A DNA stretch of 34,516 nt from an uncultured Actinomycetes bacterium (GTDB taxonomy: Bacteria > Actinomycetota > Actinomycetes > Nanopelagicales > Nanopelagicaceae). This document shows, one piece after another, positions 13,919-29,055 of the stretch; position 1 is the first letter of the stretch; each line of letters starts with the position of its first letter. The notes under the pieces are model-generated. The model was not told the DNA's origin. It made no database searches and saw nothing but the letters and a program-made list of their open reading frames with translations. The DNA lies in assembly GCA_903854185.1 (NCBI GenBank), contig CAINVP010000018.1:1-34516 (forward strand). Direction: 5' to 3'. The translations under genes were made by a program, and so were the position numbers.

Positions 13919-15059
13919 GCGCGCCCGCATCGCGGTAGCGCTTACCTTTGGCTCCAATGGCTTCGGCTTTGGAGCCTTTGTTGCACGTCTGCCTGATTTC
14001 AAGGCCCATCTTCATATCTCAAATACCGTTTTAGGTAACGCCCTCTTCTTTCAATCCGCAGGGGTCTTAACCGCCTTATTCTTTGCGGGCAGGCTCGCTG
14101 CCAAGTACGGCAGTGCACCCGTCTCAATCTGGTCCTCTTTTGCAATTGCCTCAGCGATGCCATTAGTTGGACTCCAGCTCAATCTCATCTGGTTCTGCTT
14201 AGCCCTCTTCGCCTTTGGCTTCTCTCAGGTCACTCAGGATGTTGCGATGAATGCGCACGCCGTGACGGTGGAGGATCTGGCAAAGAAGAGATACATGGGC
14301 GGGTTTCATGCCATCTGGTCACTCGGTGCCCTCATTGGTGGTGCCATAGGCGGTCTCTTCGCCCAATATAAAATCTCACCCTTTATTCAGAGCCTAGTTA
14401 TGGCCGCAGTTGTCTTGACGATTAGTTATGTACTTCGTCCATTCTGGTTATCTGCTGATATTGATAGGCATGAGCTTCAGAAGGGTAAGCGAGTGAAGAA
14501 GCCAGGAATTTTCTGGGCGCTTGGCGTTATTGGCCTCTTTGCTTCATTTGGAGAGGGAGCAGCATCCGATTGGGGTGGCGTTCTTGCACGTAATAGTTAT
14601 CATGCTGCACCATTCCTCGCAGCGATGCCCTACATCCTCTTCTTAACAACGATGGTTGCAGGTCGGTTCTCGGGCGATTATCTAGCCGATAAATTTGGGG
14701 CTTCCCGTGTTCTCTTGTGGGGTGGAATCATTGGCGGTGGTGGCTTTATTGGCGGACTTCTCATTGGCAATATTCAATCTCTTATTGCCGCTTGGTTCTT
14801 ATTAGGAATCGGAGTTTCAACAGTGATTCCACTGATTTATTCCGCCGCTGGAAGTATTGCAATCAAACGTTACTCCGGCACGATTGCGCCGTCGAGTGCC
14901 GTTGCGTTGGTCTCCGGCATCTCGTACAGCGCATTAATCGCCGGTCCCCCATTTGTTGGATTCTTAGCCGACCACATTACGCTGCGTTGGGCGCTGATGG
15001 TTCCAGCAACGCTCGTTCTCACCTTAGCTCTCGGCTCCAGATTGGCTAGTGAGGTATAG
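13911..15059 (+). CDS. MFS transporter; N terminus extends ~82 aa upstream of the listed ATG (14157), probable ATT or other non-canonical start
   Basis: Continuous frame from 13911: ILKRARIAVALTFGSNGFGFGAFVARLPDFKAHLHISNTVLGNALFFQSAGVLTALFFAGRLAAKYG... matches a typical MFS N terminus. No ATG/GTG/TTG between stop TGA 13866 and 14157; AGAAGG lies 8 nt before ATT 13911. Confidence 0.8.
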   Translation: MLKRARIAVALTFGSNGFGFGAFVARLPDFKAHLHISNTVLGNALFFQSAGVLTALFFAGRLAAKYGSAPVSIWSSFAIASAMPLVGLQLNLIWFCLALFAFGFSQVTQDVAMNAHAVTVEDLAKKRYMGGFHAIWSLGALIGGAIGGLFAQYKISPFIQSLVMAAVVLTISYVLRPFWLSADIDRHELQKGKRVKKPGIFWALGVIGLFASFGEGAASDWGGVLARNSYHAAPFLAAMPYILFLTTMVAGRFSGDYLADKFGASRVLLWGGIIGGGGFIGGLLIGNIQSLIAAWFLLGIGVSTVIPLIYSAAGSIAIKRYSGTIAPSSAVALVSGISYSALIAGPPFVGFLADHITLRWALMVPATLVLTLALGSRLASEV

Positions 15060-15980
15060 CGAGAGATCACTTGGTACTGAGCTGATGGTGCCACTCCCTA
15101 CCGGGGCCTTAGCAGCAATCGCAATGCGTTTTATCCAATCAATCTGCCCGGTAAGGGAGAGGTGTTTCATCGATTCAATAAGTGTCCACTGAGCGCCAAA
15201 GGCGCCAGCAGATAGAGATGTACCTCCTGCTTGAACCCTTTTATTCTTCGACGAGATGACGGAAAATTCACCTAATGTGGCAAAGTCCACGCGAGAGCTG
15301 TAATTCGCATAGCGAGCAATGCGTCCGGATTTATCTGTTGCACTAATTGCAAGTACACCAGGAATACAAGCAGGATTACTCACTGCTCCAAAATTTCCAT
15401 TATTGCCGCTTGAGGCGATGACCGGGATATTAATTGCAGCGAGATCTGCAACATGGCTTTGATTCGCCACATCCGCATCACAGTTCTTGCTTGGGTTAGT
15501 CGCCATAGGTAGAACAACTGCACCAAGATTGATGTTGGTTGCATTCAGATAAAGCCAGGAGAGGGCAAGAGCGATATCATCATAATTGCAACCCTCCCAC
15601 TCAGATATGTTCTTCACCGATGAGCAGCGGACCTCAATGATGCGAACACTGGGGTTAACGCTCATCGCAGAAGAGATAACCTCTGTACCGTGCTCAAAGG
15701 TTGCGTTAGACATAGCAGATAATGGAAGGGTGGCCGCCTGCGTGCCATGCATGAAGCTCTCACCATTAGGGCAGGAGGCGTTATGCGAGAAGCAGAGTTC
15801 ATCAACAATCGCGCCACGAATCTCTGTTGCAGTTGGATCAATACCAGTATCAATAATCGCAACATTCTTCTGCGGGGCGACGAGACTTCTCTTCATGGCG
15901 GCCATCGCGATGGTCGACGATGAAGCCATCATTGCCGAAAGCGCTATCACACCAAGTAATTTCTGTATCTCTCTTTGCAT
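15024..15980 (-). CDS. Secreted S8 (subtilisin-like) serine peptidase
   Basis: Signal peptide; VAIIDTGID (Asp), FEHGTEVIS (His), IASSGNNG (oxyanion Asn), GGTSLSAGAFGA (Ser). Confidence 0.88.
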   Translation of the reverse strand: MQREIQKLLGVIALSAMMASSSTIAMAAMKRSLVAPQKNVAIIDTGIDPTATEIRGAIVDELCFSHNASCPNGESFMHGTQAATLPLSAMSNATFEHGTEVISSAMSVNPSVRIIEVRCSSVKNISEWEGCNYDDIALALSWLYLNATNINLGAVVLPMATNPSKNCDADVANQSHVADLAAINIPVIASSGNNGNFGAVSNPACIPGVLAISATDKSGRIARYANYSSRVDFATLGEFSVISSKNKRVQAGGTSLSAGAFGAQWTLIESMKHLSLTGQIDWIKRIAIAAKAPVGSGTISSVPSDLSLYLTSQSGAES

Positions 15981-16075
15981 GCAGCAAAGTTAGATATCGA
16001 CCCTCACGAATCCTTCACGAACAAGTGCTGCTGCCGTGACGTTATCTACCTAATTTCATGTGGGAATTCTGTGAA

Positions 16076-16330
16076 TTACTTAACCTTGATACTCGCAATA
16101 GTTCTATGTGAATAGACGAGTGAAATCTTTGAACTCTTCAAGGTTGGCGTTACGAGGAGGCCAACTCCCTGGCCATTGAGTTTTATCGTTCCAAGAAGAA
16201 TTGAACGCTTTGCGCCAACTGGTAGGGAGAAGATTCGAATCGTCTTCTTCTTATAGATAGGTCCTGCGGTTATCGCAATCTGCTTTCCACGGAGTGGCTT
16301 GAGGAGTGATTTCACCTTGAGCGATGGCGC
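16076..16330 (-). other. Basic C-terminal module of giant protein (LKPLRGKQIAITAGPIYKKKTIRIFSLPVGAKRSILLGTIKLNGQGVGLLVTPTLKSSKISLVYSHRTIASIKVK)
   Basis: Resembles the C terminus of the 27457-29055 companion by eye; boundaries approximate. Confidence 0.55.
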
Positions 16331-19300
16331 AATGACCTTAATTGTGAAGGTAGTTGTTGATGCGACGTGTGTTGCATCAGTTGGGTTGACTACTGAAATC
16401 ACACATCTTCCGGCATGTGAGGCGTAGATCAGGCCAGCAGTAGTGAGGGCGCAAATGCCTGGCGTAGCCGATGCGATCACTAGGGCAACTGAGGACTGCT
16501 CAGGATTAATTATCAGTGAGACCCGCTGCTTTACCCACATCGCAGCGCTAGAAAAGTGCGCAACAACCTGTGGCTGGGCGACCTTATCAATCGGCTTAGG
16601 TTCAGGGGCAATTACGATAGGTGTAACTACCGGAGCTGCTGGTTCGGCAACAACCGCCGTGCTTGTCTCTGCCGGAGAGTCGTGCGGCGCCTTCAAGAAG
16701 TCAGGGATAGGAGATGGCGTTGGACTTGGTACTGGATCTACCGGTATTGAAGGAAGAAGAAAGTTGAATTCATAGAAGATGAACTCACCAGCATCATTGA
16801 AGGCCTGTACTGCAAGAAGATTCAACTGGCCTGGAATCAGGGCAAAAGTTGAATTATCTGGGAGTGGGAGAGTTACTCCGTTGAGCGTGTAAGTCGGAGG
16901 CGTGGTTGCGTATCCGATATTTCGCAGAGCGACAGTGACCGTGTCATTTGGTCCTGATGGAGTGACGTTGTAGGTATCAATTTCAGGAAGAACATCAATG
17001 CTGACTCCATTCGAAGTAACAGAGCCACGGAGGCCAATCGTTGGATCTGCGGTTACTGAGATCTCGTATGTGACTGGCTCTGCCGCTCTGTAAAAGCCAG
17101 AGGAGGCGGAGTTCACCGTGATGTGACAGGTTCCAACTCCACCGAAGAAGATAGAGCCAAGCTGAGCATTATTTAGCGTACAGACTCGAGCATCTCCCGA
17201 CGGAATTGAATATCGACGATTAGCTTCGATATACACGCCATTGATTGGGAAGAGTGATGTGCTGAAACCCTGAACGACGGAGTGGAGCCAGGTCGTTGTG
17301 AACTCCTGTAGCTTCCACTTGGTTATAGTGAAGCTGTACTGAGGTGAGTATGAAGATAAATCGTGGACGACTTCAAAATCTGAACGCGTCGTGATGGTGA
17401 CTATATTCACTCCATCAGTTAGTTCATCCTCAAACATGCAGTTTTCTGCACAATTGTAATTCACACCATTTATTTGAACTGTGACTTCTTCCAGCCCAGA
17501 TTTTGCACTGTAGCGCAAACCAACTCCTTCGCCCGGGATTACATCTACATTTGCATAGGTGTATATGTCCGGAGATGCACCGACTCCTGCGAGCGCACCT
17601 CGAGGCGTGAGAACCGAAAGTCCAGTCACAGATGATGGAATAATTGTGATGGTCTCGATGAGAGGATCAGCATCCGTCAGACCAGCTACCGAGCTCGCGG
17701 TTACTTGGAGCACGCACGTGCCGGGGAAGAGCGTTGTAAATGTTCCACCTGCATAAGAACAGACGGTGCCATCTCCGTCAATGACCGAAGTCGTCAATGT
17801 AGCGGCGCTGCTTGAGACCTGAGGGAGTGAGCCGAAGAAGTCCGCGAGCGTCATGCCGCCGAGAACCCGCTCGTAAATCGCAGTGGTTAGGTTCCAGTTG
17901 ATGTGGAGCGCCCTCGTTCCCCTAAAGGTGTACACCTTTCTCGTTCCATCGTGAGCCGTTACGGTGAGAAGGAATTGGGTTGCTTGGTCATTTGGATCGA
18001 GTGTGATTCCTGTTTTACTTAGAATAGGTAAACCGACATTGTTGAACTGCACGGTTGCGCCGATTCCATTAACAGTGAATCCATCTAGGTTGAACGTTGC
18101 CCTGCCATTAGGCATCGAGATGTAGTTAATTTCAGTGTCTGACAAGGTGCTAGATACAAAGCCGTCACTGAGCGAGATGCTAGATAGTGTCGCGTCATTG
18201 CTTGGAAGCACTGTGATCGTCTGCTCGGTCGTGGCAAGATTGTATTGATTACTTATCTCGGCCGTAACCTGAACGATGCAATCGCCGGCGCCCGTAAAGG
18301 TTGCGACTGGAGAGCTCGCATTTGAAATGTCGCAGGTTGCAGTTGAACTTCCCTTGACGCTGTAGTGGAAATCTACTCCGCCGAGCGCTGTTGCTTTACC
18401 AATATTGACAGCGGCGCGGGACTCCATCACGGAGGCGATTGGCGTCCAGGTAATCTGTTGGGCTGGATAGAGATGTAGAACGATGATGTAGGTCTTCACG
18501 CTTCCACTATGAGATGCCACTTGGATACTGAGCGAGTTACTACCAGTTGTAAGAGGCAAGGTCATTCCCGGGGTATATGCCAACACTGTTGTATCCAAAT
18601 GATCATCAATCAAAGTGAGCGCAGTGATGCTCTCATGGCGTTCGGCCAGGGTCAGGGTCAGAGTTGCGCTCTGACCTGCCTTCAGATCAGCGTGATAATC
18701 CTCAAGCGTCGAAGAAAATGCGCCTTCGATAAATGGGATTGATCCGAGCGAGATATTCGAGAGCGTGTTAACAGTTGAGGCCGTTACCACAAAAGAATAT
18801 GTGGCTGGGATTGTTGAAGCAGCGTACAGAATTTTCGACGAATCCAACGAATCACGAACTTCTGTTGCACTGGCAGAGATAGTGCAGTTACCGACGTTAT
18901 TCATTGAGATTTGATTGCTGCCCGAGAGTGCGCAAACGGCAGAACTCTCCGGTGAGACGGTGTAAACCAGTGCACCCATACCGCTAGATCGTGCTGCTGG
19001 GATTGTGTAAGGTGAATCTGACTCAGCAAAGCTGGTCGTGGAAGGGGACCAACTCATTACTTGTGCGACATCAATGATGGTGAAGGTATGGGTCGCAGCT
19101 GCACTAGCTAGCACTGGCGTGGCATCGACATAGGCAAGAATCTCGCACGTGCCCACATTGAGATAACGAAGATGTGCCACACCACCGCCATCAATGCGTA
19201 GTGAGCAGCCAGCAAGTCCTGAGTCCGAGACGGTATACCGAACCGTGGCAGTTCCGGATGAGACCGCTGCCAGAGCCATCGAATTGTCATACTTCGCAGC

Positions 19301-22300
19301 GCCCCAAGTGAAGTCGGTAGGTGTTGTGCTCCAGATAATTGAGCGGCTCGCATCCTTTGTCACGGTGACGTTCACAGTATTCGAAGTCGCGGTCTCGTAA
19401 TGAGAGTCCTGTGGTGCGACTGCGTAAAGCTGACAGCTACCTGAAGAGGTTACAACTAGTTGATTTGAACCGTTGAAGCTACAACCGGCAGTATTTCCGC
19501 CAGATACGATGTAGTAGTTGAATGTCGCTTCGCTATCACTTGCAACCGGAGCGATGAGAGCTTGCGCCCCGGCATCAGCTGAGAAGGTAGGTGCGGCATT
19601 GGAGGCATACCAAGTAACAGAGCGTGGCGCTGCAGTAACGGTGATATCGATTGAATTGCCTACTCCTTCATAGAAGAGATCTGGGGTCAGATCGACACGA
19701 ACGAGGCAGTTAATAGCGCCGCCAGTAATTGCAGTTGCAAGAACTGTGGATCCAGTGACGATACATCCGCCGCCAACAGCGCTGTAAGAAATGGTTCCAC
19801 CGCCTGCAGTTGGCGTGGCCAAGAGGACTGCGCCACTGCCGTAGACGAGAGTTGATGGTACAGAAGCGTCGAAATTGAGGTTACGCGTCAGGAAGAGCAT
19901 ACGAAGCGGTGCACTCTCAGCTGATGGTGCGCCATTACCAACGAAGTTGTGAGCCAGCACGCTGAATGTGTATGTGTCGTATTGATTGAGACCAGTAACA
20001 AGGCACGGTGAGGATAAACAATCAACAGTGAGGGTCGCGCTATTTGAAACTCTGGTAGCGGTAACCGTGTAGCTATCAATCTGTATGCCACCATCTCGAT
20101 CGGGTGCTCTCCATGTCACATTTGCAGATGTAAGAGATGCCTTCGTTGCACTTACATTTGTCGGCGCTGATGGCACAGCCGCAGGAACCTGAGTTGCTTG
20201 GGCGGTGCTGGACTGTGAGAGTGTTACTGCGGTGCCTGAATCATTAACAGAATCGACCACGGTATAAGCAGTAACTTGAACAAAGTACGAGATGCCATTT
20301 GTGAGTCCATCAGCGATGAACTCGCCACCGTGGAGGTATTGCAGATCGGTGTAATAACCCGCCTGACCATTCCAAAATACGCCATCTGTCGATGTCTGAA
20401 TGTTATAACCCGCAAAAGTTCCACAGGTCGACGGTGTAGCAAGCAGGCAGGTAGGCGCGCTGAAGGTAATGCGAAGTGCGCCATCAGCCGGGAAGAGGCT
20501 TAGCCCTTCAACCCCAGATAATTGAACGTGAGGCTGGAAAGAGGGAGAGGGCGCAGAATATTCGCCAGAACCATTCCCATTAATCGCGGCAATGAGCGCA
20601 ACATAACGGTGTCCAGGGGTAAGTCCGGAGATGCGAAGTGCGAAAGACTTTCCACCTGATGCCGCAACGCAATCAACTCCGACCGTACAGCTCTGAGCCG
20701 TAAGAGTCTCGTTTCCAGTTTGGTCACGAAGTACAACGGAGTAGCTCGTAATCGGAGATCCGCCATCCTCACTTGGCGCGCTAAATCCAAGTGTCACACT
20801 CGTTTCACCCGTAGAGAAGGAGGTGAAGGTTGGGATCGATGGAACGCCAGGAGTGATTGTAAATGTGCGCGAAATGGCTGAGCTGAGATAGGTGCTATTT
20901 GCTGCACCAGTTGCAATGACCGTACAGGCGCCAGCGCTCTTAAAGAAAATTACACCAGATACCCGGTCTACATTACAGAGGGATGAGTTCGCTGCGAGTG
21001 GATCGACTGAGTACGTGATTGCGCTACCAACATCTGAAAAAGCTGGAGAGTTTGGAATTAACCGATGTAAAGTGAACGGACCAGTGAGATTAGTTGGATT
21101 CCAAGTAATTACTTGAGCTACAGCGGTAAAGCTAAAAGCCACCGATGCACTCGAGGCCGCATCAAATAGCGAATCAGCACTGACGCTGACGTAGACATAA
21201 CACGTCCCCACAGCAGATGATGTCAAGACATTTCCAACAAATGCACATCCGAGAGTGGAGGAATTTGAATCAAGGCTATAGAGATATTGCGATGAGCCAG
21301 ACTTTCCAATTCCGGTAAGTGTTACTTGATCTAATACCGGAACTGAATATGAGTCACCGATAACCGAGAGCGATTGTTGTGACAGCGCAACATTTATGTG
21401 GATGATTATTGAAGCCGCATTGAAGACAGGGGTCGCCGCAGCGGTTATCTGAATATCGCAGATTCCAGCGCTGGTGAATTGGACTGTTGGAAGATATCTT
21501 TGAATCGAACAGCTAGAAGTGCTCGTTCCAAGAACTGTATAGGAAATCGTTCCCCCACCCGGAGTTACCGTTGCGGAAGAGATTGTTGTCGCAGAGGTTG
21601 TATAGGAGAGCGGGCCGTTATAAGTGACGACTTGGATATTTCCAGTCGCGATGCCATACAAAGTCGCTGTCTCGTACATTAAACGGCCCGAGGCTGCAGT
21701 GCCCGTGAGTCGCACCCGCAGGAGCGGCGGATTTAGCGGATCCGTTATTTGGGTAGGTAGATAGGTAACGACCAAATTACATGAGCCGTAAGCAGTGATG
21801 CTCGTTGTTCCATCAGCAATACATTTTGAAGTTGTCCCTGCTGCGATTGAGAACTCTGCGCTATCACTCAACGTCGTGATTCCAGTGATGGTTACTGATT
21901 CGCCAATCGAGTTACTGATTGAGATGGTCTTCACGAAGGGTAAGCCGACCGGTGTTGCACCGAGGTTCATCGTCTTGTGTAGGAAGAGTTTGTACTCTCT
22001 TTGAACTCCTAGCGCAGAAGAGACGCGAATTGGTATTACGGTTGTGCCAGAACTAAGCGTTGCCGTGTAGGTATCACCCGAGTGAATGACCGCCCCAAGG
22101 ATTGTGATGGTCTCGAAGGAATTGTTTGCAAACGGTTGAATCTTGTAGGTGGTGTGCGCAGGATTTCCATCAGCTGGAACGGTATAGCTCAGATTTTCTG
22201 ATACAAATCCCACAGTTGTTGTATCACCAGGGGTGATAGGAATCTGATTTCCAACTGAGTCGTAGAGCAATAGGGCTGACAACGAGTTGTCGGTGGAGGC

Positions 22301-25300
22301 GTTGATAGAAAGAGTTATTGTGAAAGAGGAACTGATATAGCCAGCACTTGAGGCCGCCGTCGCAATGAGCGCGCAGCTGCCTGTCCCAGTGGCAAGGATT
22401 CCAATCGTGTTTGCAACTACATCTTTCGAGGTAATTGTGCAGTTTCCCTGGGAGAGCGGAGCGACTGAGTACAAAATATCCCCCGGGCCAGAGGCCGTTG
22501 CTCCCGGGATTGTCTGTGAGTAATTTGATTGCGTGAGGGTAGAAATTCCTGGGGCCCATGAGATCACTCGTGGCGCAGAGTTCACCGTGAAGGTTATTGG
22601 ATCGGAGTTCGATACTGGGAATGCGCTATCACCGGCAAAACTTGCGGCGAGAGAGCAGGTGCCTGGTGCGTAAAACCGAATATAACCAGCCAGCAATGTG
22701 CACTGTGCCGAACCTGAGTTGATCATCTGATACGCAATTTCTGTTACTGATCCAATAGTTACGCTCGGTAGACCGAGGCTAGCTACCGAAGTACCGAAAT
22801 CGCTTCCACTCAATGAAGTTCTAGGGTTCCAGTACACCGGGCGAGCATTCTTTGAAATGAAGATCACCGTATATGGCGCAGTTAGGTCTGATCCACCGCC
22901 GCCCGAGTAAGCATCCAAATAGTCTGGCGCACCAGAAATCTTAGCCCTGATGGCGCACTGACCCGGTTGGGTAAAGGTGAGTGCCAGCGATAACTGGTTG
23001 ATTGAACAATTCGCGGTATTCGTCTCATTGCTCACTTGGAATGAGTAGAGATCACCGGCAGCGCTGGTAGATGCGTGTGGTAGCGGCAGGACTATGCCAC
23101 TCTGCGTTGTGGTGAGTGATGTGACCGGATCCCACTCAAGCGTTCTAGAGATGCGATTTACTGTAATTCCGAGTTGATCACTCTTAGCGCCGGAATAACC
23201 ATCATCTGCTTTGACGGAAGCGGTTGCTGTACATATGCCCGTCACTAGTGAGTAGATGATATTTCCTTGAGTGAAACACTTACCAGATGCGACTTGGAAG
23301 GATTGGAGTCCCAATCCTGAGACCGTAGATGCACCAGCGGGATCTGAAGATGCCGTTAAGATATCAAAATTTCCCATATCAAAATTGTCGGTGAGCGAAT
23401 GGATGTAGATGCTCTGTGCCGTCAAGGATTGGGTGAAAGTCTTATAGATGCTAACTTCACTTTGTCCGACGAGATCAGTTGCAATCGGTTCGGCTGTAAG
23501 ACGGGCATGATAGGTGTCGCACTTACCGGTTAAATTTCTGGCGATAAAAATGTTGTTATAGGTATCGGTATCAATAACTGGTGCATCACCGTTACAATCA
23601 ATCTGAACTCGATAATGATCGAAGTTCCAGCCTAAATGATCTGCGATTCGAGTCCAAGCCAGGACGAGATTGTTGGTTCCGACGTACTCTGCCTGAATCG
23701 AATCGTTTAAGTTAAAGCTATCCCGCGCGCCTGTTGATTCCGGGCCAGAGTTAGTTACCGCGCTCTGATAGGCCAGCGCATCGGAATTCACTAGTTGCTG
23801 TACCTCATGCATTGAATCACTTGTAGCTGATGTTGTGAATCCTCCTGCCGTTACAGATACAGAGAGGTTGTAATGGTCGTGAAACAGACCAGAAACGTTG
23901 CAAATAACGTATCCAAGCGCTACATCACTGTTGCTTATACTGCCGCAGGTGAGGTTTTGCGTTGTTAAAGTGTCGGTATCGTAGATGAAACCGGTCGGCG
24001 TGCTTCCTAAGTAGAGATCTGCTCCTGCGCCATCTGTTAACGGAGGAATCTGCACATAGATAACACTTGTTCCGTCGACTCCAATATACAAATTATCCGT
24101 GGTGATGGCTGAGCTTTGGATAATTTTCGGAGTGAGGTAATCGGAGATCAGAAGGTCACGCGAATAGGCATTTTGCGCTACCGAGTGAGCATAAATGCGG
24201 TAGTTGACGCCTTGTGTCAAATTATTGATTTCGCAATGAGCATGCTGATCTGCGTCGATGGGATTGCAGATAATATTGGATGGATCATATTGGCTATACG
24301 AATTCGAGCCGTCGAACACTCCAAGGCTCATCCCGATGAATGGATCACCTATATTTGTATGTGAAAGATCAAAATCGAGCGCGATAGTGCTGGCAGATGC
24401 TGTTCCATCTGCATTAATTCCGCGGATAGCAATTACCTTCGGCATCGCAGGGCGATATGAGAGATGATAAGAAGTTGTATCTCTCACTATTGAGTAAGGT
24501 GCCTGCGTAGCGGTCGCTGGGAAGTTTGCCTGGATCTGACAAGGGTCTTCAGTAACGGGGCTATCGTGGGAGAAGTTGTAGAGAATGGGTAACGCTCCAT
24601 CAATTTCACAGCTGGTGTTGCCATTTGGAAGAATGGAGTAAAGATCGGCAGCGGCGCTTGAACTTCCAGCTATCGCCGTGTGGACGACGCCATTAATATC
24701 TGGAGTAGTTTTCAGAACAGTTGCGCCTACAGATGATGAATATTCCTGCTGTATATCTAGATTGTCGGCTGCGTTCCGAGCTAGGAAATCGATGGAGTTA
24801 GGTGCACTTGTAAAGCCATTTCGAACTGCACTCGCTGGGATGATGAACCGGTAATAGCAACGCCCAGGAGCCAAGGCAGAGATCCTTCCAAAGGGAAGAA
24901 CGGCCTTTCCGCTTGAATCGAGCACGCGATCTACTCGACATCGAGCCGCAGCGACTGAGAAATCAGAAGAGTCACTCACCTGGAAATATGGAGCTACCGA
25001 GAAGTTCTCAGCGGCGATTCCGGTAGGAAGTAGTGGATTGCCGCTCAACGATTCGCCGACATAGGACCGCTGTGAGAAATTTCCACCTAAGGATTTAGCG
25101 AGGCCTAAATTGGCCGAGGTTAGCGACTTGATCACGTGGAAGATTCGTGAAGTACTTACTGATGGATATGCCACACCGCCAATGGTCTGAGCCGGCAGCG
25201 TTGCGGTGATGGTGCAGTCACCCGTAGAAAGCAGCGTGATTGTCGTTCCGTTCGTAGAGCAGCCGGTTCCATTGTCATTTGCCACGGAGTAGCTCGGCAA

Positions 25301-27316
25301 TGCGGACTCCGCCATGGATGCAACTGCATTTGCTGGGTAACGGTTATCACTCACATGAAGAGTGGTGCTGGTATTCCACGTCAATGTACGAGTATTTGTC
25401 GAGTTCGCGTAGCCCAATAATGGGAGGGTATAGATGTGCAATACATCGCCTCCGAGTGAACGATATGTCACAGTAAGTGAACCTGTAGAAGTGTCTGGCG
25501 TGCTTGACGTTGGAGAAAATCCAACAGTCGCAAGACAGTTCTCGGTTCCCGCTCCCGCGCCAAGCATTGGCGTAAGAGATCCACAACTCTGACTCGCAAG
25601 GGTAAAACCCGCTCCTGCAATTGAGAGCGTTACATTTACAGTTTGGCTCTCAGTATTCTGAAAATTAAAAGTTGCAATCGGTGCGCTCTTATCGCGAGGT
25701 GTTGATCCAAAGGTGTGACCCACACTCGTGATGTACTGATATCTCAGGTCAGTGGAATTGAAGGTTACATCGTAATTTTTCTTTGAGGCTGATAATAGAA
25801 AGTTGGTGACTCCTGATGGCAGCGAGAACCGAGGGTTCTGTATCGAAGTGAGCGAATCTTTCGTCTTCAAGCTTGGACGCACAGGTGAGGTAATAGCCGT
25901 TTGAATTTCAGCCGTACTCACAGTCGGTTGAAACACTATGAGTGAACCCTCATCGGCCAGCGTTGACTCGTATCTAGACCGATCTGGTGAATATGGAAGA
26001 AAATTCTGAACTGGCTGTGTTCCTTCAAAGGTGACGCCAGAATCGTCGATGCGAAGCCCTCGATTGAATAATTCCACGTTATTGGTCACTCGTGGGAGTG
26101 GTCCGGTGCAATTTCTATCGTTGACTGGAAATGTTGCTGGATGAACCGAGCCGGATACCGCCGATAGCCCTTCGTTGTTGTACGCCTGAACTCCAAAGCA
26201 ATAGGAATATCCCTCAAGAAGTGATCGGATTGCCACTGAGGTTGTGGTCTCATCTCCTGATACTAGGTTTGCTGAATAGATTTGAGGAGTTGCGATTGCG
26301 CCTGGCATGTAATTGCCTGATGGGTCATATTGATAAATATAAATTTGATATCCAGCGATAGGCGAAGAGCCTTGATTGAGCGATGTGTAGGAACTCCATT
26401 GCAGTTGGGTTTCGAGCAAGCCGCGAAAAATTTGAATGTTCGCAGGATTTGCCGGTACCACCGGGGCTAACTTTGGATTGACAGTGAAGTTAATCGTGTA
26501 CGCCTCACCATGTAAACCATCTGCTGATGTCACATGAAATACCTTCTGCCAACCAGTTGGACTGCCCGTTAGATTAGTAGGAGCGGAGTATTCAATGTTC
26601 TTAGAAGTATCGAGTGGAGTAGTCGCATCATCAACCGTAATAGTCTGCGAATCATTTACGAGTACTGGGCGAAGTTGCACAATGGGAGAAGAGGCAGAGA
26701 GCGGAACTGATGCTGAGTAACTGTGGATGTACGGGCTAAAAGCCGGCGTCAGAATTTGACTCGATTCAATTCCCAACAGCGATGAACTTGCACTGGAATC
26801 GGCGAGCTGTACCACATTGCTAATAGCTGATTGGGTGACATCTGGAGTTGACGTTCCATTATCGCAATAGCCGTGAACGGTTACCGTTAACTTAATGCGA
26901 GAGTTAAGATCTGCGGAAGTGAGCACATAAGGTGCCGGGATGACACTTCCATCATTCGAAGTTGAGGTTTCCGCACGCAAGGTTTGAAGGAGGGCGCTTC
27001 CGGTGGCGTCATATCTATCAATGCGGTAACTCCGAAAAGCGCCTATGCCATTTACGCCAACTGCCACATTTACATTCGCGGGGGTAGGTAGATAGTTTGA
27101 GTTGAGAATATTAAGGATGAGCGAGGAGCCAACGGTTGCCGGACGAGTTGGGTCGCCCATCGTGAAGGCGAAGACCGGCGTCGGGCAGATCTGGGCAGCA
27201 GCTGAAGCGGGTGAAGCGCTCGTTACGGTAGTTGCAGCGGTCAACAGGCCAAGGATTAGACCGAGAATCGAAATCTTTGCGACTCCGGTTCGATGTTGAG
27301 AAAGGCTTAGCTTCAC
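16076..27316 (-). CDS. Giant (~3,750 aa) secreted mosaic surface protein: Cys-pair Ig-like repeats, cadherin-like beta-sandwich, HYDIN/ASH-like and FN3 domains, Pro-rich linker, basic C-terminal domain
   Basis: Single 11.2-kb frame with signal peptide (ISILGLILGLLTAATTVTSASPASA). GTG start chosen at 27316 because AGGGAG lies 6 nt upstream (ORF track uses 27370). Confidence 0.9.
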   Translation of the reverse strand: MKLSLSQHRTGVAKISILGLILGLLTAATTVTSASPASAAAQICPTPVFAFTMGDPTRPATVGSSLILNILNSNYLPTPANVNVAVGVNGIGAFRSYRIDRYDATGSALLQTLRAETSTSNDGSVIPAPYVLTSADLNSRIKLTVTVHGYCDNGTSTPDVTQSAISNVVQLADSSASSSLLGIESSQILTPAFSPYIHSYSASVPLSASSPIVQLRPVLVNDSQTITVDDATTPLDTSKNIEYSAPTNLTGSPTGWQKVFHVTSADGLHGEAYTINFTVNPKLAPVVPANPANIQIFRGLLETQLQWSSYTSLNQGSSPIAGYQIYIYQYDPSGNYMPGAIATPQIYSANLVSGDETTTSVAIRSLLEGYSYCFGVQAYNNEGLSAVSGSVHPATFPVNDRNCTGPLPRVTNNVELFNRGLRIDDSGVTFEGTQPVQNFLPYSPDRSRYESTLADEGSLIVFQPTVSTAEIQTAITSPVRPSLKTKDSLTSIQNPRFSLPSGVTNFLLSASKKNYDVTFNSTDLRYQYITSVGHTFGSTPRDKSAPIATFNFQNTESQTVNVTLSIAGAGFTLASQSCGSLTPMLGAGAGTENCLATVGFSPTSSTPDTSTGSLTVTYRSLGGDVLHIYTLPLLGYANSTNTRTLTWNTSTTLHVSDNRYPANAVASMAESALPSYSVANDNGTGCSTNGTTITLLSTGDCTITATLPAQTIGGVAYPSVSTSRIFHVIKSLTSANLGLAKSLGGNFSQRSYVGESLSGNPLLPTGIAAENFSVAPYFQVSDSSDFSVAAARCRVDRVLDSSGKAVLPFGRISALAPGRCYYRFIIPASAVRNGFTSAPNSIDFLARNAADNLDIQQEYSSSVGATVLKTTPDINGVVHTAIAGSSSAAADLYSILPNGNTSCEIDGALPILYNFSHDSPVTEDPCQIQANFPATATQAPYSIVRDTTSYHLSYRPAMPKVIAIRGINADGTASASTIALDFDLSHTNIGDPFIGMSLGVFDGSNSYSQYDPSNIICNPIDADQHAHCEINNLTQGVNYRIYAHSVAQNAYSRDLLISDYLTPKIIQSSAITTDNLYIGVDGTSVIYVQIPPLTDGAGADLYLGSTPTGFIYDTDTLTTQNLTCGSISNSDVALGYVICNVSGLFHDHYNLSVSVTAGGFTTSATSDSMHEVQQLVNSDALAYQSAVTNSGPESTGARDSFNLNDSIQAEYVGTNNLVLAWTRIADHLGWNFDHYRVQIDCNGDAPVIDTDTYNNIFIARNLTGKCDTYHARLTAEPIATDLVGQSEVSIYKTFTQSLTAQSIYIHSLTDNFDMGNFDILTASSDPAGASTVSGLGLQSFQVASGKCFTQGNIIYSLVTGICTATASVKADDGYSGAKSDQLGITVNRISRTLEWDPVTSLTTTQSGIVLPLPHASTSAAGDLYSFQVSNETNTANCSINQLSLALTFTQPGQCAIRAKISGAPDYLDAYSGGGGSDLTAPYTVIFISKNARPVYWNPRTSLSGSDFGTSVASLGLPSVTIGSVTEIAYQMINSGSAQCTLLAGYIRFYAPGTCSLAASFAGDSAFPVSNSDPITFTVNSAPRVISWAPGISTLTQSNYSQTIPGATASGPGDILYSVAPLSQGNCTITSKDVVANTIGILATGTGSCALIATAASSAGYISSSFTITLSINASTDNSLSALLLYDSVGNQIPITPGDTTTVGFVSENLSYTVPADGNPAHTTYKIQPFANNSFETITILGAVIHSGDTYTATLSSGTTVIPIRVSSALGVQREYKLFLHKTMNLGATPVGLPFVKTISISNSIGESVTITGITTLSDSAEFSIAAGTTSKCIADGTTSITAYGSCNLVVTYLPTQITDPLNPPLLRVRLTGTAASGRLMYETATLYGIATGNIQVVTYNGPLSYTTSATTISSATVTPGGGTISYTVLGTSTSSCSIQRYLPTVQFTSAGICDIQITAAATPVFNAASIIIHINVALSQQSLSVIGDSYSVPVLDQVTLTGIGKSGSSQYLYSLDSNSSTLGCAFVGNVLTSSAVGTCYVYVSVSADSLFDAASSASVAFSFTAVAQVITWNPTNLTGPFTLHRLIPNSPAFSDVGSAITYSVDPLAANSSLCNVDRVSGVIFFKSAGACTVIATGAANSTYLSSAISRTFTITPGVPSIPTFTSFSTGETSVTLGFSAPSEDGGSPITSYSVVLRDQTGNETLTAQSCTVGVDCVAASGGKSFALRISGLTPGHRYVALIAAINGNGSGEYSAPSPSFQPHVQLSGVEGLSLFPADGALRITFSAPTCLLATPSTCGTFAGYNIQTSTDGVFWNGQAGYYTDLQYLHGGEFIADGLTNGISYFVQVTAYTVVDSVNDSGTAVTLSQSSTAQATQVPAAVPSAPTNVSATKASLTSANVTWRAPDRDGGIQIDSYTVTATRVSNSATLTVDCLSSPCLVTGLNQYDTYTFSVLAHNFVGNGAPSAESAPLRMLFLTRNLNFDASVPSTLVYGSGAVLLATPTAGGGTISYSAVGGGCIVTGSTVLATAITGGAINCLVRVDLTPDLFYEGVGNSIDITVTAAPRSVTWYASNAAPTFSADAGAQALIAPVASDSEATFNYYIVSGGNTAGCSFNGSNQLVVTSSGSCQLYAVAPQDSHYETATSNTVNVTVTKDASRSIIWSTTPTDFTWGAAKYDNSMALAAVSSGTATVRYTVSDSGLAGCSLRIDGGGVAHLRYLNVGTCEILAYVDATPVLASAAATHTFTIIDVAQVMSWSPSTTSFAESDSPYTIPAARSSGMGALVYTVSPESSAVCALSGSNQISMNNVGNCTISASATEVRDSLDSSKILYAASTIPATYSFVVTASTVNTLSNISLGSIPFIEGAFSSTLEDYHADLKAGQSATLTLTLAERHESITALTLIDDHLDTTVLAYTPGMTLPLTTGSNSLSIQVASHSGSVKTYIIVLHLYPAQQITWTPIASVMESRAAVNIGKATALGGVDFHYSVKGSSTATCDISNASSPVATFTGAGDCIVQVTAEISNQYNLATTEQTITVLPSNDATLSSISLSDGFVSSTLSDTEINYISMPNGRATFNLDGFTVNGIGATVQFNNVGLPILSKTGITLDPNDQATQFLLTVTAHDGTRKVYTFRGTRALHINWNLTTAIYERVLGGMTLADFFGSLPQVSSSAATLTTSVIDGDGTVCSYAGGTFTTLFPGTCVLQVTASSVAGLTDADPLIETITIIPSSVTGLSVLTPRGALAGVGASPDIYTYANVDVIPGEGVGLRYSAKSGLEEVTVQINGVNYNCAENCMFEDELTDGVNIVTITTRSDFEVVHDLSSYSPQYSFTITKWKLQEFTTTWLHSVVQGFSTSLFPINGVYIEANRRYSIPSGDARVCTLNNAQLGSIFFGGVGTCHITVNSASSGFYRAAEPVTYEISVTADPTIGLRGSVTSNGVSIDVLPEIDTYNVTPSGPNDTVTVALRNIGYATTPPTYTLNGVTLPLPDNSTFALIPGQLNLLAVQAFNDAGEFIFYEFNFLLPSIPVDPVPSPTPSPIPDFLKAPHDSPAETSTAVVAEPAAPVVTPIVIAPEPKPIDKVAQPQVVAHFSSAAMWVKQRVSLIINPEQSSVALVIASATPGICALTTAGLIYASHAGRCVISVVNPTDATHVASTTTFTIKVIAPSLKVKSLLKPLRGKQIAITAGPIYKKKTIRIFSLPVGAKRSILLGTIKLNGQGVGLLVTPTLKSSKISLVYSHRTIASIKVK
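16570..16765 (-). other. Pro/Ala/Val-rich linker in giant protein
   Basis: IPVDPVPSPTPSPIPDFLKAPHDSPAETSTAVVAEPAAPVVTPIVIAPEPKPIDK. Confidence 0.8.
19895..20855 (-). other. Three consecutive fibronectin type III-like domains in giant protein
   Basis: PSIPTFTSFSTGETSVTLGFSAPSEDGGSPITSYSV...; LSLFPADGALRITFSAP...; PSAPTNVSATKASLTSANVTWRAPDRDGGIQIDSYTV... Approximate boundaries. Confidence 0.75.
21640..21974 (-). other. HYDIN/ASH ('choice-of-anchor D')-like domain in giant protein
   Basis: LGATPVGLPFVKTISISNSIGESVTITGITTLSDSAEFSIAAG...CNLVVTYLPTQ. A second likely copy lies at ~25395-25735 (FGSTPRDKSAPIATFNFQNTESQTVNVTLSIAGAGFTL...CLATVGFSPTSS). Confidence 0.6.
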
Positions 27317-27456
27317 AGATTGCTCCCTGCGTAATGGGGTTGATATACCTGGATATGTCCATCTAGGCACATTGTCTAAGGGTAACCCAGGCAGGGGCTA
27401 ACCCCCCAAGGGAACGCGTATCTTCTGCGTGCCGGCTGGTGTGAAATACGTGGTTT

Positions 27457-29055
27457 TTAGGGCAACTTAGCGATTGCTGTGGCTACCAACTGGTCGCCAA
27501 ACTTTAACTCAATGGTGAAGTTCTTTGGAATGGTTACCGGTGAGAAGGTGAATCTCACTGCACCATTTGAGGTTGCCGTCACCTTTTGGACAAATCCTAA
27601 TGAGCGCGATGCGGCATCTAAGAGATAGAGATCTAGACTCTTATTTGCATATATCTTTGAGAGGGCCGATTGCACTGTGAGCTTCTTGCCGGATGTGAAG
27701 ATGCGGACCAATTTTGGATTGACCGTCAACGCCAGCGGACCTGATGTTCCACTGGAATATATGGCATCACCATTCTTCACGACATCCACCGAACACTCAC
27801 CAGCGGCGAGTGCTGTGACAACACCCTTTTGAGTGATTGAACAGATCTTCGGTGTTAACGAGATGAAGGTAAGCGCGCCAGTTCCACTTCCACCTTGAAT
27901 AGCTAAGCGCACATTGGTGCCAATCTCACGCTCTTTCACTGTGGAGAGCAGCACCAGATCTTTACCTAACCGCTTGGTGCCGTAGAAGGTTAAGTGGCGA
28001 GTAAGAATGATGACATTACTATCTTCATCAAGGTAATAGCCCTCTCCCGCATCGTCAGGAAGAACTTTCCCGGAAAGCTTGCTAATACTCTTCCAGACCA
28101 ATCCATCTTGCGAGTACACAATGTCGTTTCCCTCTAGCGGCAGCGGTCCCAAATTCATTGTAAGAACGTTCTTCAATTGAGTAATCCGCACACCTTGCTC
28201 GTCATAAGCGTTGATTTCAACTTGCAAGAGCCCTGCTTTCACTGCTTCTGGAGCTGTGCCTGAAACGATATCTAAGCGCGCATTTTCTGGAAGAATTCCT
28301 GCCGGAGCGGTGACGGTTACATAAGAGTTCTCAATAGGAACAGTGACTTCGAGCGGGAGAATTAGAGATGGCTCAGAGGATGTCGCAGCCGCAGCCGGCG
28401 TATCTGTTGTCGATACATCTGCCGTAGCTGAAAGAACTGTGTAGAGAATCGGATTTGAGGTAGTGATGTAATAATCAGGATCATCGCTCAATAGGTAACC
28501 GATGTAGCACGAGCCTTCATTTGGAGTGAATAGCTCGCTGCCTACGAGGTAGCAACCCGAATTAGAAGAGTCCAGAACTACTGGCTCTACTCCGCCAATC
28601 CCCTCCGAGAAATTCACATTCGGAAGGAAGGTAGATGAACCGGCATTTATCTTGACTGGTTCAGGAAGGTCATTGATCGTACGAGTGTGAAGTGGTGGTT
28701 GTGCAGGGCTGGTGCGGGTAAGGGCAAAGAGTCGAATCGTTGAGGCTGGCCCGGCACCGTTAAAGGCACCGACCGTCGCCGAGATCAGGCAGGTACCAGA
28801 ATTTGCATAAGTGAAGTGGGTACCTTCAGTGAGTTGGCATTGGCTTCCGGAATTATCTAGAACCCGATAAACGATGGGAGCGCCCGAGGCTGAGGTCGCT
28901 GCAGGAAAGGCGTTGCTATCTGCGACAATGGAAGTTGCTGCCGGTGGCAACTCTGAAGTCCAGGTGATTGCAGGGGCAGCGGCCTGAACGGGTAGGGCAG
29001 GCACGCCAGAGAGAGCAACTAACAGAACGAGTGCTCCGAGCGTTCTCATCTTCAC
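27457..29055 (-). CDS. Secreted companion protein with three Cys-pair Ig-like repeats and a giant-protein-like C-terminal module
   Basis: Signal peptide MKMRTLGALVLLVALSGVPALPVQAAA; repeats C-X~14-C (SQCQLTEGTHFTYANSGTCLISA etc.); GTG start with GGGGGA upstream. Confidence 0.85.
   Translation of the reverse strand: MKMRTLGALVLLVALSGVPALPVQAAAPAITWTSELPPAATSIVADSNAFPAATSASGAPIVYRVLDNSGSQCQLTEGTHFTYANSGTCLISATVGAFNGAGPASTIRLFALTRTSPAQPPLHTRTINDLPEPVKINAGSSTFLPNVNFSEGIGGVEPVVLDSSNSGCYLVGSELFTPNEGSCYIGYLLSDDPDYYITTSNPILYTVLSATADVSTTDTPAAAATSSEPSLILPLEVTVPIENSYVTVTAPAGILPENARLDIVSGTAPEAVKAGLLQVEINAYDEQGVRITQLKNVLTMNLGPLPLEGNDIVYSQDGLVWKSISKLSGKVLPDDAGEGYYLDEDSNVIILTRHLTFYGTKRLGKDLVLLSTVKEREIGTNVRLAIQGGSGTGALTFISLTPKICSITQKGVVTALAAGECSVDVVKNGDAIYSSGTSGPLALTVNPKLVRIFTSGKKLTVQSALSKIYANKSLDLYLLDAASRSLGFVQKVTATSNGAVRFTFSPVTIPKNFTIELKFGDQLVATAIAKLP

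Follow-up and report, generated by a model that had tools for sequence, protein, structure and literature searches.

A subtilase of phage-borne lineage adjoins the gene of a giant, predicted Ig-like surface protein in a small-genome actinobacterium

The window, i.e. the whole stretch of DNA analysed (34,516 nucleotides), is contig C18 of an actinobacterial MAG (G000; 1.45 Mb, 86% complete), for which genome size and habitat suggest a place in the freshwater order Nanopelagicales. Three genes lie in tandem on its minus strand and specify a companion protein, a giant protein and a compact S8 peptidase (the subtilase, P0001; Table 1). This layout of three exported-protein genes agrees with the original prediction, as do the sizes, which had been put at ~530 aa for the companion and ~3,750 aa for the giant (532, ~3,750 and 318 aa were found). 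Each of the three proteins carries a Sec-type signal peptide at its N terminus, as read from the sequence, and the genes are separated by gaps of ~140 nt and ~95 nt. A low-power scan (7 sites vs 15.6 in shuffles) identified no minus-strand promoter-like sites between them. The locus is preceded by genes for a CoA-acylating methylmalonate-semialdehyde dehydrogenase (MMSDH) and a class-III aminotransferase, and followed by an MFS gene, SCO1 and cox genes.

Table 1. Features of the three-gene locus in the window.
Feature	Position	Strand	Description
Subtilase (P0001)	15024-15980	-	318 aa; signal peptide ~1-28; catalytic D44, H97, N193 (oxyanion), S255; no I9 propeptide
Giant, longest ORF	16076-27370	-	3,764 aa from first GTG
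Giant, likelier start (second GTG at 27316)	16076-27316	-	~3,746 aa; preceded by GGGAG; MKLSLSQHRTG...ASAAA; signal peptide, 23 Cys-pair Ig-like domains, 3 fn3, other beta-sandwich-like regions, Pro-rich linker, C-terminal all-beta domain
Giant, C-terminal beta domain common to companion	16079-16333	-	profile A5 (query rows included); blastp with companion
Companion	27457-29055	-	532 aa; signal peptide, 2 N-terminal Cys-pair domains, middle domain, third Cys-pair domain, C-terminal beta domain
Companion, C-terminal beta domain (residues ~450-530)	27466-27723	-	all-beta; pLDDT 61-81 by block

Searches against Pfam identified three fn3 domains in the giant and, in the companion, sub-threshold Big domains only. 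A self-built profile of the Cys-pair repeat found 23 copies in the giant and three in the companion, a count that is not an independent test since the profile includes those same segments. The 58 cysteines of the giant form 23 pairs spaced 10-28 residues apart, where 10.5 such pairs would be expected and the maximum in 2,000 random placements was 18. By blastp, residues 382-484 of the companion align with residues 3617-3721 of the giant (28% identity, E = 2.4e-7), and both likenesses originally proposed for the two proteins, namely a common Cys-pair repeat type and a similar C terminus, were thereby upheld. No solved structure was found to match the Cys-pair domain, and the structure model of the companion was poor except for its C-terminal domain. 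The possibility that this C-terminal domain serves as a genus-wide anchor was rejected, as its profile recovered just its input proteins (5/32 species). The middle domain of the companion (window positions 27900-28400, minus strand) contains the motif GYYLD..NVIILTRHLTFYG, which is also kept in surface proteins from elsewhere in the genus; the domain is ZU5/GAIN-like by eye only, with no Pfam identification. Residues 240-532 of the companion align with surface proteins of four other genomes (G016, G027, G001 and G037).

Direct reading of the C termini revealed no LPXTG tail in either large protein, neither of which shows the signature of a sortase-anchored adhesin (LPXTG, hydrophobic stretch and basic tail), and no C-terminal TM helix was seen in the giant. 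A sortase gene is nevertheless present elsewhere in the same genome (contig C101:6475-6837). The giant would resemble the giant Ig-like adhesin of Mobiluncus mulieris (PMC10619420), which also belongs to the Actinomycetota, is a very long tandem Ig-like protein and contains internal cross-links, including disulfides. In the window protein such an architecture would take the form of 23 Cys-pair domains (self-built profile) together with the Pfam fn3 matches, the disulfides and the Ig fold being predicted only. While the Mobiluncus adhesin has 51 repeats and is cross-linked through ester, isopeptide and thioester bonds (PMC10619420), the window giant has one Cys pair per domain, a length of ~3,750 aa and no visible LPXTG. 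The Giant1-5 cluster of Apilactobacillus kunkeei is comparable in that it comprises a run of adjoining genes, each for a very large exported protein, in an organism whose genome is small (PMC12863079), with fast evolution and variable gene number; N-terminal beta-solenoids are described for these proteins and, unlike in the present case, the abstract mentions no associated phage-type protease. Judged by sequence, both large proteins fall into a class of exported proteins that is common in this small-genome actinobacterial family, with predicted tandem Ig-like domains bearing one conserved Cys pair each.

The third gene product belongs to peptidase family S8, as it matches PF00082 at 40.1 bits (cut-off 21.8), possesses the catalytic D/H/S residues and the oxyanion Asn, and adopts a subtilisin fold in its AlphaFold2 model (pLDDT 88.8), for which the top Foldseek matches in the PDB are subtilisins and a lanthipeptide protease (TM ~0.64-0.75). 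It differs from solved subtilisins in its low identity (~20%) and in the lack of an I9 propeptide: Inhibitor_I9 produced no match, and the 43 residues that precede D44 are mostly signal peptide and leave no room for such a propeptide (a zymogen propeptide comprises ~70-80 residues). It is further set apart from S8 peptidases in general by a segment of its own family (E-x-C...CPNG...G) and by two invariant Cys pairs. Residues D44, H97, N193 and S255 and the pairs C63/C70 and C167/C205 are invariant in 36/36 sequences compared, while an additional pair, C119/C131, occurs among these 36 only in P0001, in the copy of a sister species (G030) and in four phages (L065/L066/L071/L072). Assignment as a type VII secretion mycosin (TIGR03921) was rejected, the score of 51.1 bits being far under the cut-off of 278.75.

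Relatives of this enzyme were found mostly in viruses. A scan with P0001 alone recovered one viral contig, and a scan with a family alignment matched 372 IMG/VR contigs, of which 80 were retained (L065-L144, e.g. L069:6013-6897); judged by sample habitat, these contigs are probably of freshwater origin. The best viral relatives are 41-43% identical to the window subtilase, most cellular relatives being 27-35% identical, and a plasmid search yielded distant S8 matches only (26-29%). No relatives of P0001 or of the phage copy L099 were present in the 50,697 records of INPHARED. Nearly all of the retained viral ORFs are compact (~290-340 aa), with little or nothing between the signal peptide and the catalytic Asp, and signal-peptide-like N termini were assigned by rule, rather than by a trained predictor, to 66/80 copies. 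The surrounding genes are those of phages or actinophages: WhiB, an actinobacterial marker that also marks actinophages (PMC6802176, PMC10202952), is encoded within 6 kb of the subtilase gene in 63/80 loci, and other neighbours named by eye are an Ntn-hydrolase-like protein, thioredoxin, endolysin, Dps, GroES and MazG. The set formed by WhiB, thioredoxin, Dps, GroES and the Ntn-hydrolase-like protein has the look of a gene cluster for stress or host takeover. A carrier contig 106.9 kb in length is that of a tailed phage, as PHROGs identified a terminase, portal, head protein, head protease, tape measure, DNA polymerase and endolysin; Terminase_6N was not detected in 16 phage contigs. The phage contig of L069 (L160, L162, L165) also encodes many small related proteins that start like 'ILVYEDFLTKEECDSLI', are oxygenase-like by eye and cluster near the right end.

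Viral S8 proteases are already known singly. The PHROG 3677 'protease' is likewise an S8 domain of tailed phages and gave a weak profile match to P0001 and to a phage copy; however, it is a family of 1,125 positions, and L099, a member of the compact family, matches no PHROG. The same domain occurs in tailed-phage entries of BFVD (A0A6J5NRV7 of an uncultured Caudovirales phage, and the protease of Lactococcus phage AM4). A coherent actinophage subtilase family with repeated host capture was not found in the literature searched, which took in few subscription journals. P0001 falls in a supported clade with the phage copies and is a compact exported ORF with C63/C70/C167/C205, the features by which this compact actinophage subtilase family is defined here.

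In the phylogenetic tree, the subtilases of the window and of G030 are sister to those of phages L065/L066/L071/L072 (support 99/91), a grouping that persisted when outgroups and long branches were removed (100/98); the branch to the window/G030 pair is long (1.26), and the distribution of C119/C131 is an independent character that agrees with this placement. Four further host copies, two from G004 and one each from G047 and G056, are 42-52% identical to phage L134 and group instead with phages L134, L115 and L093 (100/100), and a single clade of all six host copies was rejected (p-AU 4.0e-5). The two placements of host copies among phages and the rejection of a single host clade indicate at least two exchanges of the gene between phages and bacteria. 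The nesting suggests that transfer ran from phage to host, in a family sampled mostly from a virus collection. Judged from these comparisons, the window subtilase belongs to a compact, exported and catalytically intact S8 lineage carried mostly by freshwater tailed actinophages, so that the initial description as a compact S8 peptidase was correct as far as it went, the phage-borne lineage having been missed. A prophage remnant in the window was considered and rejected, as no other window ORF matches the 1,449 phage ORFs.

One of the G004 host copies (L055:66-1019, contig C37) lies ~400 bp from a tyrosine-integrase-like gene (1413-2576), which suggests a mobile element. It could be argued from this integrase neighbour, from the phage lineage with its repeated transfer to hosts and from the export signals that the host has retained the subtilase for phage exclusion. 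The enzyme would then strip candidate receptors, perhaps Ig-like surface proteins, and thereby shut out further phages, just as the phage copies would once a cell is infected; we regard this explanation as very unlikely.

Orthologues of the companion and the subtilase were detected in only one of the 31 other species of the genus, G030 (public MAG Jr-25may17-29), at 74% and 76% identity, respectively. Its contigs C50 and C49 display the order MMSDH, companion, an extra surface protein of 792 aa, giant (split by the contig end), subtilase and MFS. The extra protein (L053:677-3052, minus strand), situated between giant and companion, has the same repeat and C-terminal domain, and indicates that the cluster gains or loses members. 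Over the comparable part, its C-terminal third, the giant is 65% identical to its G030 counterpart with 12/12 aligned Cys kept, and the subtilase and the companion each retain 6/6 Cys. The dN/dS values against G030 of 0.09 (subtilase) and 0.15 (C-terminal part of the giant) are rough because dS is near saturation, and indicate that the locus is under purifying selection in both species. The neighbouring MMSDH is 97% identical between the two genomes, as against 65-76% for the locus; the surface genes accordingly evolve faster. In one relative, G028, the cox-MFS block is present without the cassette; since this block and the MMSDH gene are not adjacent in the relatives examined, no fixed empty site for an insertion could be recognised. 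In the ancestor of the window species and G030, one subtilase copy was established immediately downstream of the giant gene.

Across the family, S8 peptidases occur in 19/151 genomes and the Cys-pair domain in 74/151; among the matches listed, G000 and G030 alone have both on the same contig, and a few further cases may exist. Given the shortness and incompleteness of MAG contigs, the apparent lack of a gene in any one genome carries little weight. Most genomes with giants of the same repeats lack a nearby S8 gene: none stands beside the giants of G011 and G036 in the stretch read, nor near the companion-like surface proteins of G016, G027, G001 and G037 in the stretches read. In G036 a giant ORF that remains open (at least 4,524 aa; L061:6429-20000, minus strand) is followed by a small protein like the C-terminal domain and by signalling-like genes. 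A protein of 848 aa in G024 (L054:99-2642, minus strand) has a subtilase domain of this broad type and, after it, beta domains and an APTP repeat linker, and may represent a protease joined to a surface protein; its candidacy as a subtilase/Cys-pair fusion was rejected when the Cys-pair profile gave no match, and for that reason it was left out as evidence.

In the original prediction the three genes make up a dedicated system for a surface structure, the subtilase serving to mature, shed or remodel the giant, a possible fibre or adhesin. Its observational core stands, since all three proteins are exported and separated by short gaps, two of them are related surface proteins of predicted disulfide-type Ig-like build, and the order and strand of the genes are kept in G030 under purifying selection, the subtilase being the giant's neighbour in both species. 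The conservation of the neighbourhood that was to be sought in relatives is seen in G030 and breaks down at the level of genus and family, where subtilase and giant are found independently: the locus is present in 2/32 genus members, every other case among the matches listed has its S8 and Cys-pair genes on separate contigs, and same-family subtilases are carried in the absence of a giant by G004, G047, G056 and hundreds of phages. The set in G030 includes one more surface gene and no further protease. A dedicated giant-plus-subtilase system is thus not general and was rejected for the genus; as an explanation of the locus we consider it unlikely.

Subtilases are commonly secreted digestive enzymes, and the lone copies in G004, G047 and G056 adjoin unrelated genes, which would suit a general extracellular scavenging protease that came to lie by the giant through chance. 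Its conserved adjacency to the giant in two species and the hundreds of phages that carry short genes with a conserved export signal, suggestive of a role in infection, make such a protease distinctly improbable here.

The locus joins two things of different origin, a surface-protein class and a phage-lineage subtilase, and we favour, with moderate confidence, the explanation that a surface protease of phage lineage was captured and has been retained next to the giant gene, with the two large proteins as its likeliest substrates. The bacterial copy would have come from a phage; the enzyme would be secreted by Sec, fold without a classical propeptide and act outside the membrane on envelope or surface proteins. 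It is plausible that the giant is cut by the subtilase, and the neighbouring disulfide-stapled giant and companion are the likeliest, not exclusive, candidates to be trimmed or shed. On the phage side, its targets would be surface proteins of the infected cell, and it is likely to serve in altering the cell surface so as to exclude other phages or release progeny. No Cys-pair domains were found near the phage subtilases among 1,449 ORFs and no companion homologues in viruses, and the phage side consequently gives no pointer to the giant or the companion as substrates. A bolder proposal, to which we attach little credence, is that secreted subtilases, widespread in freshwater actinophages, strip surface proteins from the host in infection, to exclude competitors or free progeny, and that some hosts captured the gene, here fixing it beside the gene of its target giant.

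To our knowledge, freshwater actinobacterial phages are very abundant and the way in which they handle the host surface is largely unknown. The presumed dedicated maturation system is here replaced by an account of gene exchange. A secreted protease family, predicted to be active, which is present in hundreds of phage contigs and repeatedly shared with hosts would constitute a testable tool of infection or exclusion, for which the window offers a candidate substrate class in the giant disulfide-stapled surface proteins.
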